Below are positions 1,267-58,333 of a stretch of DNA of 64,000 nt, piece after piece. The DNA is from Oscillatoria sp. SIO1A7. Its GTDB lineage: Bacteria > Cyanobacteriota > Cyanobacteriia > Cyanobacteriales > Laspinemataceae. The notes below the pieces were generated by a model. The model had not been told where the DNA came from and did not search any database. It worked only from the letters and a program-made list of their open reading frames with translations. Each line of letters starts with the position of its first letter. The first letter of the stretch is position 1. Location: NCBI GenBank assembly GCA_010672965.1, contig JAAHFN010000004.1, forward strand, positions 62,001 through 126,000, given 5' to 3'. The translations under genes and the position numbers were made by a program.

Positions 1267-4266
1267 ATGTCACCTCTAGATCCCACAAAAATCGCCAAAC
1301 CCCTTGCCGGTCTGGCTCTGGGTTCTTTCATTGCTCTGGCTTTGCCGTTGCCCTGGACCAATAAATATTTGTGGGCCCAAACACCTGCCCCAGACATACC
1401 AAACCCCAGCGGAGCGCCAATAGAAAATTACAGAATTAGACCGGGGGATAATATTCGCATCGATAACTTAGAGGGGAGGGAATTCAGTGGCGATTACCTA
1501 GTGCCGCCCGATGGCAGCTTATCCCTGCCCATGATTGGCAGCGTATCCGTGGTAGGGCTAACCATGCAGGAGGCAGCCGAGGTTATTGCCGCTAAATACC
1601 GTCGCTTCTTCAAATATCCCCAAGTTGGGGTCAGTTTGCTCAGGATTAGTCCGCTCAATATTACCATCGCCGGAGAGGTAATTAGTCCAGGTCCCCACAT
1701 CATACTCCTGCAAAACCTCAGAGAACATGCAGGAATAGAATTGCCAACGGTGACCCAAGCTCTGGAGCAATTTGGGGGAATTACTCTAGCGGGGGATCTC
1801 AGTCGCGTGCAGGTGCGCCGAAGGGAAAGCAATGGTGAGGAGCGGATCGTAGTCCTCGACCTATGGGAATTTGCGCGCACGGGAAATCCGCGTCAAAACA
1901 TCCCTTTGCAAGATGGAGATACAATCTTCGTACCTAAGACAGATGAAGTTAACTTGGCACAAATACGCCAATTGGCAGCGGTTAGCTTTGCTACAGATCT
2001 GAGTACGCCCCGCACCGTAACGGTGCTAGGCGGAGTAACCCGTCCCGGATCTTATGTCATAAAAGGAGGAGACACCACTGGAGGTAACAGGCCATTTGCC
2101 GGACGAGCCGACGGCCTACCCACGGTTATTCGAGCCCTCCAGTTGGCAGGGGGAGTGACTCACAGTGCCGACATTCGCCAAATCCAGATTCGCAGAAACG
2201 CGAAGACTGGAGGGGAACAATTCTTTACTATCAATTTATGGGATTTTTTGCAAACTGGAGATGTGAGCCAAGACACCATTTTGCAAGAAGGAGATACGAT
2301 CTTTATTCCAACGGCCAATCTCAGCCAAACAGAAATCCGCCAAATAGGGAAGGCTAGCTTTGCAGCGGATCCAAATATACCGCGCACGGTGACGGTGGTG
2401 GGAGAAGTGACTCGTCCGGGCACTATTGTCGTCCAAGCAGGAGATACTGTAGGCATCAACACGCAATTTGCTTCTCGTATCGAAGGCTTTCCCACCCTGA
2501 CCCGCGTGCTGCAATTGGCAGGGGGAGTGACTCGCAGCGCGGATATTCGCAACATCCAAATACGCCGTCGCAGCAGGTCTGGCACACAGAGAGTTATTAA
2601 TGTAAGTTTGTGGGATTTTTTGCAGACGGGGGATCTCGATCGAGATCCGATTGTGGAAGATGGAGATACAATCGTGATTCCCATTGCCAGCAATTTTAAT
2701 GATATGGAAGCACGCCGGATAGGGAAGGCTAGCTTTGCAGCGGATCCGAATCTACCGCGCACGGTGACGGTGGTGGGAGAAGTGACTCGTCCGGGCACTA
2801 TTATTGTCCAAGGAGGAGATACCGTAGGCATAAATACGCAATTTGCTTCTCGTACCGAAGGGTTGCCCACCCTGACCCGCGTGCTGCAAGTGGCCGGGGG
2901 AGTTACTCTCAGCGCGGATATTCGCAAGATCCAAATCCGCCGTCGCAGCAGCGACGATACCGAGAGAGTTATTAATGTAAATTTGTGGGAATTTTTGCAG
3001 ACGGGGGATCTCGCTCGAGATCCGATTGTGGAAGATGGAGATACAATCTTGATTCCCATTGCCAACAATTTTAATGAGATGGAAGCACGCCAGATAGGGA
3101 AGGCTAGCTTTGCAGCGGATCCAAACATACCGCGCACGGTGACGGTGGTGGGAGAAGTAACCCGTCCGGGTACGATTGTCGTCCGAGGAGGAGATACCGT
3201 AGGCGTAAACACGCAATTTGCCTCACGCACTGAAGGCTTACCGACTCTAACCCGCGTGCTGCAATTGGTAGGGGGAGTGACTCGCAGCGCTGATATTCGC
3301 AAGATCCAAATCCGCCGTCTCACCAGATCCGATATTGAGAGAGTGATTGATGTAAATTTGGTGGAATTTTTGCAGACGGGGGATCTCGCTCGAGATCCGA
3401 TTGTGGAAGACGGAGATACAATCGTGATTCCCATTGCCAGCAATTTTAACGAGATAGAGGCACGCCGGATAGCCGACACCAGTTTTGCAGCGAATTCAAA
3501 TACACCGCGCACGGTGACAGTGGTGGGAGAGGTGAGACGCCCGGGTCCAATTGTCGTCGAAGGAGGAGATACCGTAGGCATAAACACGCAATTTGCCTCG
3601 CGCATCGAAGGCTTACCCACTCTAACCCGCTCCATTCAATTGGCTGGGGGAATTACGGAATTAGCAGATATTCGCCGCATCCAACTGCGCCGAGCTACCA
3701 AATCTGGAGCCGAAAGGGTCATTAGCGTCAATCTGTGGGAACTCTTGCAGACGGGGGATGCAAGCCAAGACCCGGTTGTGGAACAGGGGGATACCATTGT
3801 GGTTCCTAGGGGAGCAGAAGTCAACCCTGCAGAAGCCGCACGGTTAGCGTCAGCTAGTTTTTCCCCCAATACAATTTCAATTTATATCATGGGGGAAGCA
3901 GCAAGAGCTCCAACATTGAGACAGGACGGAGCCATCGAACTGCCGTCTGGAACTCCCTTGAACCAAGCGCTGCTCGCAGCCGGTGTATTCAACAGCGTTC
4001 GAGCCAACAAAAGTGAGGTAGCTCTTATTCGCCTCAATGCTGATGGAACGGTCAATCAGCGGAGGATAAAGGTTAACCTAGAAGACGGGATTAACGAGGA
4101 AAGCAATCCCCTGCTCCGCAACAACGACGTTCTTTTTATCAACCGTTCTGGCTTCACTAAGGTCAGGGACGCCTCTGGTACGGTTGCCGAGCTTCTATTA
4201 GTCGGTCCGAGGCTGTTGTCGTGGTTTCAACTTCTTGATATTTTCGGAATCCTTAATATTAATTAG
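1267..4266 (+). CDS. SLBB-repeat polysaccharide export protein (Wza-like)
   Basis: 999 aa. A signal peptide-like N-terminus (residues 1-38, ending near YLWAQ) precedes a Poly_export domain at about 55-130 (IRPGDNIRI, DYLVPPDGSLSLP). A series of SLBB-type beta-grasp modules follows. One divergent module (about 131-240) is followed by five tandem modules of 124-125 aa, each with PRTVTVvGeVtRPG, LTRvLQLAGGVT, aDIRkIQIRR, LWdFLQTGD and GDTIvIP. A diverged final module ends near residue 980. The family forms outer-membrane or periplasmic conduits for capsule/exopolysaccharide. Wza itself has far fewer SLBB units, so this is an expanded version. The gene lies 65 bp upstream of the Wzc-like gene on the same strand, consistent with an export operon. 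A long antisense frame over the repeats is a by-product of them. Confidence 0.9.
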   Translation: MSPLDPTKIAKPLAGLALGSFIALALPLPWTNKYLWAQTPAPDIPNPSGAPIENYRIRPGDNIRIDNLEGREFSGDYLVPPDGSLSLPMIGSVSVVGLTMQEAAEVIAAKYRRFFKYPQVGVSLLRISPLNITIAGEVISPGPHIILLQNLREHAGIELPTVTQALEQFGGITLAGDLSRVQVRRRESNGEERIVVLDLWEFARTGNPRQNIPLQDGDTIFVPKTDEVNLAQIRQLAAVSFATDLSTPRTVTVLGGVTRPGSYVIKGGDTTGGNRPFAGRADGLPTVIRALQLAGGVTHSADIRQIQIRRNAKTGGEQFFTINLWDFLQTGDVSQDTILQEGDTIFIPTANLSQTEIRQIGKASFAADPNIPRTVTVVGEVTRPGTIVVQAGDTVGINTQFASRIEGFPTLTRVLQLAGGVTRSADIRNIQIRRRSRSGTQRVINVSLWDFLQTGDLDRDPIVEDGDTIVIPIASNFNDMEARRIGKASFAADPNLPRTVTVVGEVTRPGTIIVQGGDTVGINTQFASRTEGLPTLTRVLQVAGGVTLSADIRKIQIRRRSSDDTERVINVNLWEFLQTGDLARDPIVEDGDTILIPIANNFNEMEARQIGKASFAADPNIPRTVTVVGEVTRPGTIVVRGGDTVGVNTQFASRTEGLPTLTRVLQLVGGVTRSADIRKIQIRRLTRSDIERVIDVNLVEFLQTGDLARDPIVEDGDTIVIPIASNFNEIEARRIADTSFAANSNTPRTVTVVGEVRRPGPIVVEGGDTVGINTQFASRIEGLPTLTRSIQLAGGITELADIRRIQLRRATKSGAERVISVNLWELLQTGDASQDPVVEQGDTIVVPRGAEVNPAEAARLASASFSPNTISIYIMGEAARAPTLRQDGAIELPSGTPLNQALLAAGVFNSVRANKSEVALIRLNADGTVNQRRIKVNLEDGINEESNPLLRNNDVLFINRSGFTKVRDASGTVAELLLVGPRLLSWFQLLDIFGILNIN
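1984..3855 (+). repeat. Five tandem 372-375 bp SLBB-coding repeats
   Basis: Units begin at 1984, 2356, 2731, 3106 and 3481 (aligned on AGCTTTGCAG-like starts), spaced 372, 375, 375 and 375 bp. Units 2 to 4 are nearly identical at the DNA level over long stretches. This indicates recent duplication or gene-conversion-like homogenisation. Confidence 0.9.
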
Positions 4267-24574: not shown

Positions 24575-25311
24575 GGCAAAAAGCAGAGGGGACATGGGGA
24601 CAAGGAAATATGGGGACAAGGGGACAAGGAAATATGGGGACAAGGGGACAAGGAAATATGGGGACCAATAAATGGGGACCAGGAGACACGGGGAGCCTTG
24701 GTGCATAAGTCCTATTCCAGTGCAAGGGAGCTTTCATAGGACTTACGCACCAAGCGATTCCCCTCCTGGGAGGGGTTGGGGTGGGTTCCGCAAGTTATAC
24801 CCACCCACACCGCCCGCAAGAGGGGAACTCGTCGCTTCCCAACGAGCGGTACTTTCTTTCCCAGAAATCATCTAAGTCCTGTTTCAGTGCAAATTTCCTA
24901 CTTTTCTCCAAGTCTCCTTGTCTCCAAGTCTCCTTGTCCCCCATGCCCAATTCCCAATGCCCAATGCCCAATGCCCAATTCCCAATTCCCAATTCCAAGG
25001 GTGCATCTCAATTTAGCTCGGCCCTCCGCCAATCTCTCCCGAGTCACAGGGTGTTTGGCCGTGCATCTATAAGCGTCAATATATGGCTGGAGGTTTGCGA
25101 GTAGGGCAAATCGACAACTATATATAGTCATTTCAATTAAGTTTGATACAGCTAGGTTCGCTAGCTTGTAGGGGCGATTCGCGAAATCGCCCCTACATCT
25201 TGTCTCATTTTTATTTGAAATGATAATAAAAGCCAGGTAAAAGCTTTTGCTTTTACTAGGTTTTGGCGCGAGCAATAGAAAGAGAAATTGAGAAAGACTC
25301 CAGGAGGTTTT
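24575..25311. other. Gene-free region of short tandem repeats
   Basis: 737 bp. It starts with a GGGGACAAGGAAATAT-type repeat (about 24590-24680). Pieces of element family C (CATAGGACTTACGCACC, near 24736) follow, then CCCAATGCCCAATTC heptamers (about 24945-25000) and a GTAGGGGCGATTCGCGAAATCGCCCCTAC inverted repeat (about 25168-25196). Small open frames here are repeat translations. Confidence 0.55.
25302..25307 (+). promoter_or_regulatory. Ribosome-binding site deciding the cyclase start
   Basis: A perfect AGGAGG lies 4 nt before the ATG at 25312. The upstream in-frame ATG at 25288 has none, so translation should begin at 25312. Confidence 0.8.
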
Positions 25312-32035: not shown

Positions 32036-32750
32036 TATTGATATAGCAGTCAGCACTCAGCACTCAGCACAAGCATTGCATACAGTTAGTAGGGGCGATC
32101 GCGCGAAATCGCCCCTACAGGCAAACTTGAAGTTGTCTCCCACACTTCCCACACTTCCCACACCTCCCACACTTCCCACACTTCCCACACTTCCCACACC
32201 TCCCCACCCTCTTTCCTCGGGGTATGTTTTTTATAATTCCCCTTTTTGGAGTTGCCGACGAGCGGCATAAATGTCTGGGGCGAAGCATTCCAATACAATA
32301 ATTTTCTTTAAGAACAAAGTCTGTCTCGGGAATGCTATCGCCCCTACGCGCCGGGTCGATACACACAATAATGCCAAATCTAAAAAACATACCCGCAGAT
32401 TGCCCCCACACCTCGTAGGCGGCCTCCCACACCTCCCACACTTCCCACACCTCGTAGGCGGCCTCCCACACTCCCCACACCTCCCATATCAAAAGGGCCT
32501 TTTAAACTTTTTCTGCAACTATGGTAGGGACAAATAGCGATCCGACCCAAGAACGAGGCATACTGTAATGGAAGTATATGGCGCGAGTCATTTTAGGCTG
32601 CGCGCCTTGGGTTGTGTCCAGGCCCTATGATGCTGGCAAACCCATTGGCATTAATTCCCGGTTGAGCGTTTGGGCCTAGGATAAGAAATACGTTTGATTG
32701 CCCGCATTTGTTAACCCATTTGCCTACCCTATTCTAATGAGGCTGACCCG
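32036..32750. other. Repeat-rich divergent spacer between ribE and the nuclease gene
   Basis: Two CCCACACTTCCCACACCTCC-type arrays (about 32138-32210 and 32405-32488) flank a 175-bp element with 14-bp inverted ends (32220-32394). The last 200 bp before 32751 must hold the promoter, but no boxes are obvious. Confidence 0.55.
32220..32394. repeat. Inverted-end element between CCCACACTT arrays
   Basis: Ends GGGTATGTTTTTTA and TAAAAAACATACCC are exact complements. The interior contains GTAGGGGCGATAGCATTCCC on the minus strand, recalling the core of other elements here. Only one copy is in the window. Confidence 0.55.
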
Positions 32751-41009: not shown

Positions 41010-41184
41010 ATGTATGTAGAGTTCGACCTAACAATTTGCGACTTCGCCGCTTAATTTCCAATGCGATGCCCAATGCCCGATGCCCGATGCCCGATGCCCA
41101 ATGCCCCATGCCCCATGCCCAATGCCCCATGCCCCATGCCCCATGCCCCATGCCCAATTCCTTCTAATAAAAACTCAATAAATA

Positions 41185-41218
41185 ATCGGGGCGGAGTCTA
41201 GCTAGACTCCGCCCCGAT
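41185..41218 (-). terminator. 34-bp perfect palindrome, possible terminator
   Basis: ATCGGGGCGGAGTCTAG followed directly by its exact complement. On the minus strand it is followed by ATTATTTATTGAG and lies about 125 bp beyond the stop of the secreted-protein gene at 41342, which could make it that gene's terminator. A role as a recombination or structural site is equally possible. Confidence 0.4.
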
Positions 41219-41341: not shown

Positions 41342-41695
41342 CTAATCTCTCATCCGATTTCGCAGGCTATTGCGAATGCTCCTTGCCTCATTGCCTCGGT
41401 TGCTGGTAACGGCGATCGCGGCCAAGGTATCTCCTTCGTGGCGCACGCACATTACTATAGCCCGAGAGTATTCGGTATCTCCCTGAACCAGTTCTCGATC
41501 TTTGATCTTGACATCATCGAGTCCCATATCCCTCATAGAGCTGGCGGCTTTTCGCAGACAGCCATCTTTGCTAGCACCCCGCACCCGAATCATCGATACC
41601 CGCAAATCGGGAGTGTCGTCTGCTAAGGTTGGCGCTGCCCAGAGGAGCAAACCCGCACTGAGAACCCCTGCTAACCCGAAGCGAACTGATTTCAT
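41342..41695 (-). CDS. Small secreted hypothetical protein
   Basis: 117 aa from the ATG at 41695. A longer in-frame start at 41812 is rejected because GGAGGT sits just before 41695 and a signal peptide begins there (MKSVRFGLAGVLSAGLLLWA, cleavage near TLADD). The mature part has two cysteines (GCLRKAA and IVMCVRH) that could form a disulfide, a SMIRVRGASKDG start and a basic end (RSIRNSLRNRMRD). I do not recognise the family. Export to the periplasm or outside is likely. No operon partner is visible. Confidence 0.72.
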   Translation of the reverse strand: MKSVRFGLAGVLSAGLLLWAAPTLADDTPDLRVSMIRVRGASKDGCLRKAASSMRDMGLDDVKIKDRELVQGDTEYSRAIVMCVRHEGDTLAAIAVTSNRGNEARSIRNSLRNRMRD

Positions 41696-41700
41696 AAAAA

Positions 41701-41706
41701 ACCTCC
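41701..41706 (-). promoter_or_regulatory. Ribosome-binding site deciding the start at 41695
   Basis: GGAGGT on the minus strand, 5 nt before the ATG at 41695. Confidence 0.7.
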
Positions 41707-42109
41707 AAATGAAGGGATTATTTATTTGCAAATCCTTTATAGAATAGAACGTCGAGTTGTGAGCCTCGGTTCCAAGGGTGGCTGGTAGAAAAGCCAGATC
41801 CCAAGAAGTCACGGCTCGCCCTTGGAGATCGCCGATCGCTGTTTCGATACGATCGCCAGCACTTTAAGTTACTTTTTGCTAAAACATATTAATAAATAAT
41901 ACGTTACCGCAATAAAACTTATCTATACAAGTCAGAGAGCTTGTCAATGAGAGACAAGGGTTAAGCGAGATATAGTTGCAAATTTTCTTTAATTTGCGAT
42001 CGCAGGTGGGCATTTTCGAGAGGATTTATTAAAATCGACAATAGTTTTGAAAGTAAGTAATCGGGTCCAGCAGCCTAGAATAGGGAGATAGGTGTCTGTC
42101 CATTCCTAT

Positions 42110-42448
42110 TAGTCTCTAAGTTTGGAATGGTTGCGGGTATCAGAGGCAAACTATAGCGTTTCTCAAATAAGTGTAATAAACGATCGGGTTGGGAAATGTA
42201 GGGGCGACAGCATCCCCGCTCTGGATCTCGGCTGTATAACGGGAATTTCCGTATTGGGATGCTTCGCCCGCTTCGCCCCAGAAACCTCACATCAATTTGA
42301 GAACCGCTATAATCCCCGTTTTACAGCCGAGATCCAGAGCGGGGATGCTGTCGCCCCTACATTTCCCAACCCGATCGTTTATTACACTTATTTGAGAAAC
42401 GCTATAGTTTGCCTCTGATACCCGCAACCATTCCAAACTTAGAGACTA
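42110..42448. repeat. Inverted duplication with 138-bp arms
   Basis: Arms 42110-42247 and 42311-42448 are complementary almost throughout (mismatches only near the inner ends), separated by 63 bp. The left arm includes 42 bp of unique DNA (TAGTCTCTAAGTTTGG and on), then the left half of an element A copy (42152-42311). The right arm repeats both in inverted order. Confidence 0.85.
42152..42311 (+). repeat. Element family A, copy 3
   Basis: 160 bp, from TATAGCGTTTCTCAAAT to TTTGAGAACCGCTATA. Its left half is re-copied in inverted orientation immediately downstream (to 42406). Confidence 0.8.
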
Positions 42449-42481
42449 CTATTTTGAGACAATAGTCTTGTCTCAAAATAG
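42449..42481. terminator. Perfect 14-bp-stem hairpin
   Basis: CTATTTTGAGACAA and its exact complement flank a 5-nt loop. It may terminate the minus-strand permease transcript, 145 bp past its stop, but lacks a clear T-run. Confidence 0.4.
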
Positions 42482-42625
42482 GGCCAATAGTCTTGTCTTC
42501 CTGGCGAGCCTTCATCTTAGCATATTTTCTGTATGAAAACCATCTCTTTTGATGAGTCCCAGAGTGAACACCCTACCCTACACCCTAAACCCCACACCCC
42601 ACACCCTAAACCCCACACCCTCAGT

Positions 42626-43843
42626 CTAGGCAGTACGCAAAGCCACAATTGGGTCGAGTTTGGCGGCTTGTCGTGCGGGGATGACGCCGAAGAACAGGCC
42701 GATCGCTCCAGAGACGCCAGTAGCCAGGGCGATCGCGACTGGAGATATTCCTGCCTCCAATGGACTAAAAGCGCCAATCAGCATTACCCCGCTAACGCCG
42801 ACAGTTATACCAACCAAGCCACCAGCGATCGATAAAATAACTGCTTCTATTGTAAATTGAATTAAAATATCCTTTTGCGATGCCCCGATTGCTTTTCGCA
42901 AGCCAATCTCTTTGGTGCGCTCCGTCACCGAAACGAGCATGATATTCATAATACCAATGCCGCCCACAAAAAGAGAAATGCTGGCGATCGCCGCGAGCAT
43001 TAAGGTTAGAGCCCCTGTTATAGCCCCGACAATTAGCAAGATATCTTTCTGGCTATCTACTGTAAAGTCATCCTCTCCAACAATTTGGTGTCGCAATCTT
43101 AAAAGGTTGGTAATCTGAAACTGAGCGGCTTGCACGCTATTTTCGTCTTTAGCAGAAATCGAGATAAAGGTCACGTCAAGACCGTAAGGAGAGGTGCGCC
43201 CCGTAACCCGATTAATCATAGTAGTAATAGGGATAAAAACCGCATCATCTTGATTGGTGCCCATAAAAGAGCCTTTGGTTTTCATCACTCCAACCACTTC
43301 AAAGCTAGTCCCTTTGATGCGAATCTGCTCCCCAATCGGATCGGCGGGGCCAAAGACGCGATTGGCGAAATCGGAACCGATCGCCACCACCAGTTTATTG
43401 CGCTTAACATCTATATGTTTAATAAAGCGACCTTGAGCCACCTCAAAACCCCGCACTCCCAAAAAGTCTGGGGTTGTGCCGACAACCAGAGTCTGGGTAT
43501 TTTTGTTGCGGTAAGTAACCGTTTGTCGGTTTTGGCGTTGAGGGGCGACGGCTTTGACCGAAGGTACTTGGGTAGCGATCGCCGTTGCATCCGCCAGCAC
43601 TAGCGTTTTGGGAATATCGAAAGAGGTATTCTGAGTTTCGCGAGAACCGGGAACCACAAACAGGACATTTGGCCCAAGCGCCTCAAACTGTTTCGATGCT
43701 AGCTTCTGAGCCCCTTGTCCCACCCCCACCATAAAAATGACTGATGCATTACCAATAACAATACCCAACATAGTCAGACTGCTGCGTAGCTTATTTGCTA
43801 CTAGCGTCCTTCCTGCCATCTTAATACTTTCTACTATATCCAT
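42626..43843 (-). CDS. MacB/FtsX-type ABC transporter permease
   Basis: 405 aa from MDIVESIKMAGRTL; the longer start at 43870 is less likely. It has the MacB periplasmic core domain between a first membrane helix (about 22-45, LTMLGIVIGNASVIFMVGVG) and three C-terminal helices (about 275-400) of the FtsX fold, with TKEIGLRKAIGASQKDILIQF as the cytoplasmic coupling segment and the ending PARQAAKLDPIVALRTA. MacB-type transporters move peptides, lipoproteins or toxins across the envelope by mechanotransmission. The expected ATPase (and membrane-fusion protein) are not adjacent. It is preceded by a kinase gene on the same strand, 50 bp away, so they may be co-transcribed. Confidence 0.9.
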   Translation of the reverse strand: MDIVESIKMAGRTLVANKLRSSLTMLGIVIGNASVIFMVGVGQGAQKLASKQFEALGPNVLFVVPGSRETQNTSFDIPKTLVLADATAIATQVPSVKAVAPQRQNRQTVTYRNKNTQTLVVGTTPDFLGVRGFEVAQGRFIKHIDVKRNKLVVAIGSDFANRVFGPADPIGEQIRIKGTSFEVVGVMKTKGSFMGTNQDDAVFIPITTMINRVTGRTSPYGLDVTFISISAKDENSVQAAQFQITNLLRLRHQIVGEDDFTVDSQKDILLIVGAITGALTLMLAAIASISLFVGGIGIMNIMLVSVTERTKEIGLRKAIGASQKDILIQFTIEAVILSIAGGLVGITVGVSGVMLIGAFSPLEAGISPVAIALATGVSGAIGLFFGVIPARQAAKLDPIVALRTA

Positions 43844-43894
43844 ACTTGTAATCCCCCGATCGGGGAGCAAATCAATCTCCCTGGCTTATTTTCC

Positions 43895-52886: not shown

Positions 52887-53022
52887 AGTCTCAAGGTACA
52901 ATACCTTCGCCAAAAGACAAAAATCCCTTATTTGTAGGGAGTGGCTCGGGAACCAACCCAACAAATGCCTGTTCGCGCTGCACTAGGTTGTCCGGCTATC
53001 GGAGAGACTTTATAAATGGCGA

Positions 53023-53120
53023 TCGCCCCAAACAAATCGCCCCAAACAAATCGCCCCAAACAAATCGCCCCAAGCAAATCGCCCCAAACAAATCGCCCCA
53101 AACAAATCGCCCCAAACAAA
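53023..53120 (+). repeat. Seven tandem 14-bp units TCGCCCCAAACAAA
   Basis: 98 bp, with one variant base (AAG for AAA in unit 4), continuing into a partial unit TCGCCCTAC. On the minus strand it opens a frame of alternating Gly-Ala-Ile/Trp-Gly-Asp repeats that is not a gene. Confidence 0.9.
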
Positions 53121-53402
53121 TCGCCCTACTAGGCTAAATGGCCCTATTAAATTACCTCAGCCAAATCGTCCCAATGCCCAATGCCCAATGCCCAATTCCC
53201 CATTCCCCATTCCCAATGCCCAATGCCCAATTCCCAATTCCCCATTCCCAATTCCCCATTCCCAATTCCCCATTCCCAATTCCCCATTTATAATGTAGTA
53301 CGCTATAATACAACTCTACCTGCGTGCCCTGACTGCGATCGCAAATTTCCCAGGATGCGTGGCGCTAGGATTCCATCGGCACAGTAGCAACCACTGGAAA
53401 AT

Positions 53403-56325: not shown

Positions 56326-56398
56326 TGGAGCTAAGCGGATTCGAACCGCTGACTTCCTCAATGCCATTGAGGCGCTCTACCAACTGAGCTATAGCCCC
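56326..56398 (-). tRNA. tRNA-Ala(GGC)
   Basis: 73 nt on the minus strand. Acceptor GGGGCTA pairs with TAGCTCC. The D-arm is GCTCAGTTGGTAGAGC, and the anticodon stem-loop is CCTCA-ATGGCAT-TGAGG (anticodon GGC). The T-arm is CAGCGGTTCGAATCCGCTT-like with TTCGAAT. CCA is not encoded (the discriminator A is followed by TTT). Confidence 0.95.
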
Positions 56399-57996: not shown

Positions 57997-58333
57997 AGCG
58001 ATTCTTTATATTTTTGAATTGGGCATTGAGCCGAAGGGCATTGGGAGGTGTGGGAAGGGTGGGAAGTGTGGGGAGAGAGGGGAGAAATGGGAGTTTGGGG
58101 AGAGATGGAACATTTTCAGCAGTCCACCCACCCTTCTCATACTTCCCACACTTCCCAAACCTCCCACACCTCCCGGTCTCCCGGTCCCCATGTATCCCTA
58201 TCTCTCGGTCCCCATGTCTCCCTATTTCCCGGTCCCCATGTCCCCATGTCCCTTGACTTGACCTACGGGGTACAAGGACTGATAAACTATGGGATGGTTC
58301 TGAGAGAGGAAATATACGGGAATTATATTGGCA
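57997..58333. other. Divergent spacer between hisF and petP
   Basis: Contains GGGAAGTGTGGGGAGAGAGG-type repeats (about 58035-58110), CCCACACTTCCC repeats (about 58140-58175) and CCCGGTCCCCATGT repeats (about 58180-58250). No gene is seen. Confidence 0.5.

Follow-up and report, generated by a model that had tools for sequence, protein, structure and literature searches.

The described systems closest to this locus are cyanobacterial MITEs, the palindromic products of whole-genome amplification, and misassembly at repeats in de Bruijn graphs. Nezha is a cyanobacterial MITE named in a review (PMC10969869), and element A of the present locus is likened to the Nezha type, as outlined there, by general features and not by sequence: it is ~140-160 bp long, has 17-bp terminal inverted repeats, exists in hundreds of copies and carries a terminal TA. 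Whole-genome amplification by MDA is known to produce palindromic chimeras (PMC13265396). As in the chimeras described in that source, foldback copying at a short inverted segment would give a hybrid edge here; unlike them, the present structure is known from assembled contigs alone.

With de Bruijn misassembly at repeats (k = 127), the locus shares contig-end overlaps of exactly 127 bp, an exact 127-bp repeat pair and a two-vertex chimeric path. It differs in that the path folds back via a nested inverted MITE pair, and in that its second join has neither overlap nor N. No title on exactly such an artefact was found among the literature matches listed.

In this study, an inverted duplication was analyzed in a 64,000-nucleotide stretch of Oscillatoria sp. 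SIO1A7 DNA (the window; the contig carrying it is referred to as C117). The comparisons below indicate, with a probability of roughly 0.88, that the duplication is an artefact of assembly, at a site where one MITE is genuinely nested in another.

Inverted Repeat in the Deposited Sequence

An inverted-repeat search of the window returned two arms at 42107-42247 and 42311-42451 (141 nt, 98% complementary, spacing 63 nt), the longest of 33 inverted pairs in the window. Between 42110-42247 and 42311-42448, 136 of 138 positions agree, with mismatches only at 42237 and 42244. The longest exact run is exactly 127 bp, extending over 42110-42236 on the plus strand and, inverted, over 42322-42448 on the minus strand. 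Each arm comprises 42 bp of flanking sequence, designated F (42110-42151; inverted copy at 42407-42448, minus strand, by arm comparison), and 96 bp of the 160-bp element A. These measurements agree with the sequence-only reading, which had described a 138-bp inverted duplication around a 63-bp centre, each arm holding half of element A and about 42 bp of flank.

The free energy of the single-stranded fold was −176.6 kcal/mol, compared to −37.9 kcal/mol (sd 3.7) in 100 shuffles. The inverted repeat is present in the deposited record beyond chance. A known structured RNA was considered and rejected: the one match in the window at the gathering score is a tRNA at 56326-56398, and five related stretches gave none. 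The repeat is probably absent from the organism's own DNA, judging by the contig comparisons that follow, and the strong cruciform proposed earlier is moot for a structure that the DNA does not contain.

The left copy of F extends over 42088-42154 (plus strand), 67 bp that exactly match positions 222-288 of contig C144. Its 25-base core occurs at three sites in the 9.08-Mb genome (≤3 mismatches), namely both arms and C144.

Element A and the Nested MITE Pair

Element A had been called mobile-like, and its distribution bears this out. Its 17-base end, ATTTGAGAANCGCTATA, which forms terminal inverted repeats, has 599 exact sites in the genome and none in the reversed control. In the stretches examined, 56 of 65 inward-facing end pairs (≤400 bp apart; some loci overlap) span 138-160 bp, and nearly all such pairs have TA at their ends. 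Short, multicopy and uniform in length, element A forms a MITE-like family with several hundred members.

The first 127 bp of C144 (37,107 bp) are the reverse complement of window positions 42203-42329, after which the two sequences diverge. Positions 1-224 of C144 contain a full 150-bp MITE, A2 (19-168), lying reversed inside a second copy, A1, which extends to 224 on the right; F follows at 222-288, identical to the left copy in the window, and then other sequence. The A2/A1 junction is found at two genome sites, in C117 and C144. When modelled without A2 and one TA, A1 is a complete element of 153 bp, 96.8% identical to an un-nested sister in contig C123, indicating that A2 was inserted into A1 at a TA. 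The A2-free site in C123 is regained on deleting A2 and one TA, in line with target duplication of TA (one event). By these alignments, the nested A1/A2 pair is a real structure. The direct duplication of F, one copy on each side of the pair, is by inference also real. If the left flank joins C144, the 67-bp F is a direct repeat around A1, much longer than the TA duplication; a repeat of such length could derive from crossing-over between two insertion alleles.

In contrast to the modelled A1, the 160-bp element of the window is only 85.7% identical to the C123 sister. This apparently complete MITE (42152-42311, plus strand) is in fact an A1/A2 hybrid by alignment: it is A1-like over 42152-42202 and identical to A2 over 42203-42311, with A2-specific sequence from 42237. 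The switch lies within 34 bp common to A1 and A2 (42203-42236, plus strand), which stand in inverted orientation between the two elements; C144 94-127 matches the inverted copy at 42322-42355. The left half of A1 appears reversed at 42312-42406 (minus strand), up to the A2 insertion point, as judged from the junction and the sister comparison.

A 26-base stretch of the left half has 36 similar sites in the genome (≤3 mismatches) and is exact only in both arms and in C123. Among the 30 of these 36 sites that were read, the C123 sister extends like arm 2 and C144, unlike arm 1, which makes the arm-2 side look natural and the arm-1 side switched. One of these 30 copies, in contig C107, is similar in its left half (1 mismatch) and A2-like in its right half. 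Since this combination is natural, an A1-like/A2-like pairing is not impossible in itself.

Repeat Lengths and Contig Ends

Repeat lengths were counted over 814,708 bases of the genome (65 stretches including the window; low-complexity matches dropped). Sixteen maximal exact repeats had a length of exactly 127, 13 at contig ends and 3 internal; every other length in the range 120-134 had between 0 and 3. Excluding this locus and the repeat W described below (5 contig-end, 1 internal), 8 contig-end and 2 internal repeats of length 127 remained, still a spike; internal repeats of 100-160 bp, 127 excepted, numbered 32 across 60 lengths. An exact 127-bp match elsewhere was present for 16 of the 112 contig ends examined (the two ends of contig C60, all N, excluded). 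The other two internal 127-bp pairs both lie in contig C24, and one of them flanks a 100-N scaffold gap (locus L056, 7113-7466), a second scaffold join alike in kind.

Such a spike at 127 is characteristic of assembly on a de Bruijn graph with k = 127. The assembler was presumably SPAdes-like, going by the typical behaviour of such programs. The perfect part of arm 1 can be read as one k = 127 graph vertex, and the 127 bp equal to the start of C144 (42203-42329, minus strand) as a second, given the exact match and the spike. The repeat length at the locus thus equals the assembly k, and its breakpoints coincide with the ends of other contigs: the start of C144, contigs C32, C51 and C137 at 42449, and C139 and C120 at 42451.

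To the right of arm 2 lies W (42449-42575, plus strand), the 127-bp end of a multicopy repeat present in six other contigs. It is terminal in the five that end at 42449 or 42451 (terminal 125-127 bp) and internal in C97, the sole contig reading through it, with a copy 99% identical. Leftward of W, C97 carries GCC, which completes a palindrome; C117 breaks this palindrome with CTA exactly between 42448 and 42449. With W terminal elsewhere and the palindrome broken at this point, the right-hand part of C117 starts like a contig ending in a collapsed repeat. Since arm 2 ends at 42448 and the next 127 bp are terminal in five contigs, 42448/42449 is probably a blunt join of two contigs, a position marked both by the arm end and by the other contig ends. 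The hybrid nature of element A here and the contig end at the right boundary of the repeat are two features missed by the sequence-only reading.

W is nearly identical at 7 places and has a hairpin at its start, and contigs break within it. Its interpretation as a retroelement end was rejected: a YMDD frame lies beside the C97 copy, yet that frame has no Pfam family.

Flanking Genes in Relatives

The gene to the left of the repeat (41342-41812, minus strand) had no family in the Pfam search, and the gene to the right (42626-43870, minus strand) matched MacB_PCD and FtsX. The left gene was matched in 9 of 38 relatives, its own genome not counted, and for 7 of them 20 kb around the match was read. 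Genes of C144 lie near the left gene in 6 of these 7. The seventh, G003, has no C144 gene nearby, but its contig stops ~0.2 kb beyond the left gene. Two such neighbours were searched back against the Oscillatoria genome, and the best match of each was on C144 (619 vs. 121 and 725 vs. 372 bits for the next contig). At 10 loci of the right gene, neither the left gene nor a C144 gene was found nearby (E 1e-15; query ORFs of at least 110 aa).

The C144 genes are 3′ of the left gene in the relatives, but the join proposed here would put them 5′ of it. The comparison with related strains suggested earlier therefore supports, at gene level, the linkage of the left gene to C144, but not the gene order. 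The sequences to the left and right of the repeat are probably not true chromosomal neighbours. The window is probably chimeric between 42448 and 42449, and adjacency of the genes on the two sides (left of ~42.1 kb, right of ~42.45 kb) should not be assumed.

Proposed Origin of the Inverted Duplication

Under the artefact reading, the true order would be left flank, F, left half of A1, reversed A2 at the TA in A1, right half of A1, a second direct F, and C144. In graph terms, the natural path would run from the left flank through vertex U (42110-42236) and vertex V (the reverse of 42203-42329) into C144. One extra edge, from V to reversed U across the shared 34 bp (A2 to A1), would suffice to divert it. 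Such an edge may stem from a molecule with a folded-back 3′ end, formed in vitro or in vivo, from an inversion of the middle, or perhaps from graph simplification. The assembler would then walk F and A1, cross into A2, return via A1 and F reversed, and halt at the 127-mer vertex 42322-42448 (reversed U). The halted path was presumably then placed end to end, with no overlap, against an unrelated contig starting in the multicopy repeat at 42449, a join that reads would probably not support.

The earlier proposal had been either a foldback or template switch in the genome or an amplification chimera. Its artefact branch is favoured here, with the assembly graph as the visible direct cause (127-mer vertices, path end at 42448, blunt join at 42449). 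Amplification may still contribute, since the wrong edge could come from a chimeric read that folds back where the MITEs are nested. Besides the C107 copy and the gene order in the relatives, two further points weigh against the artefact reading: something in the data must have given rise to the extra edge, and a minor form that really exists could be its source; and an assembler has no evident reason to make a join free of both overlap and N. For draft genomes in general, a cheap test is whether the arm length equals the assembly k and whether other contigs end at the breakpoints.

Alternative Explanations

A real minor form, either a foldback or a small inversion between the 34-bp segments, may have been carried by some chromosomes or part of the culture and mixed by the assembler with the main form. 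The contig does contain a hybrid A1-A2 edge, and an inverted middle segment would produce an edge indistinguishable from that of a foldback. Nothing besides this edge calls for a minor form, and chimeras arising in library making yield an identical one; we consider this explanation very unlikely. If it were true, with template switching between the 34-bp segments, palindromes would form preferentially at nested MITEs.

A real foldback fixed in the genome is very unlikely. In this scenario, a template switch during replication, at the 34-bp inverted segment, would have led to backward copying of A1 and F before synthesis rejoined the original template further on. This matches the deposited contig as it reads, and the 34-bp segment is a fair substrate for template switching. 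The price is three coincidences with k = 127 (the arm length, the C144 overlap, and the end of arm 2 abutting the W end of three contigs); C144 would moreover lack a left neighbour, and the left and right genes are linked in no relative examined.

Despite the large size of the A family, an origin of the symmetry from two separate insertions of A, or from F being a repeat family in its own right, can be rejected, because two of the three F sites are the arms themselves and because the second half-element starts where A2 entered A1 and not at a MITE end. The sequence-only reading was right that separate insertions would leave the flank unduplicated.

Other Repeats in the Window

Window positions 1850-3814 contain a 375-bp unit in 5-6 tandem copies, 65-90% alike, probably a coding repeat. 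Short direct-repeat arrays with units of 7-14 bases (e.g., CCCAATG, CCCACACTT and ATCGCCCCAAACAA) were observed at 24925-25024, 32112-32222, 41055-41189, 53008-53311 and 58109-58261.
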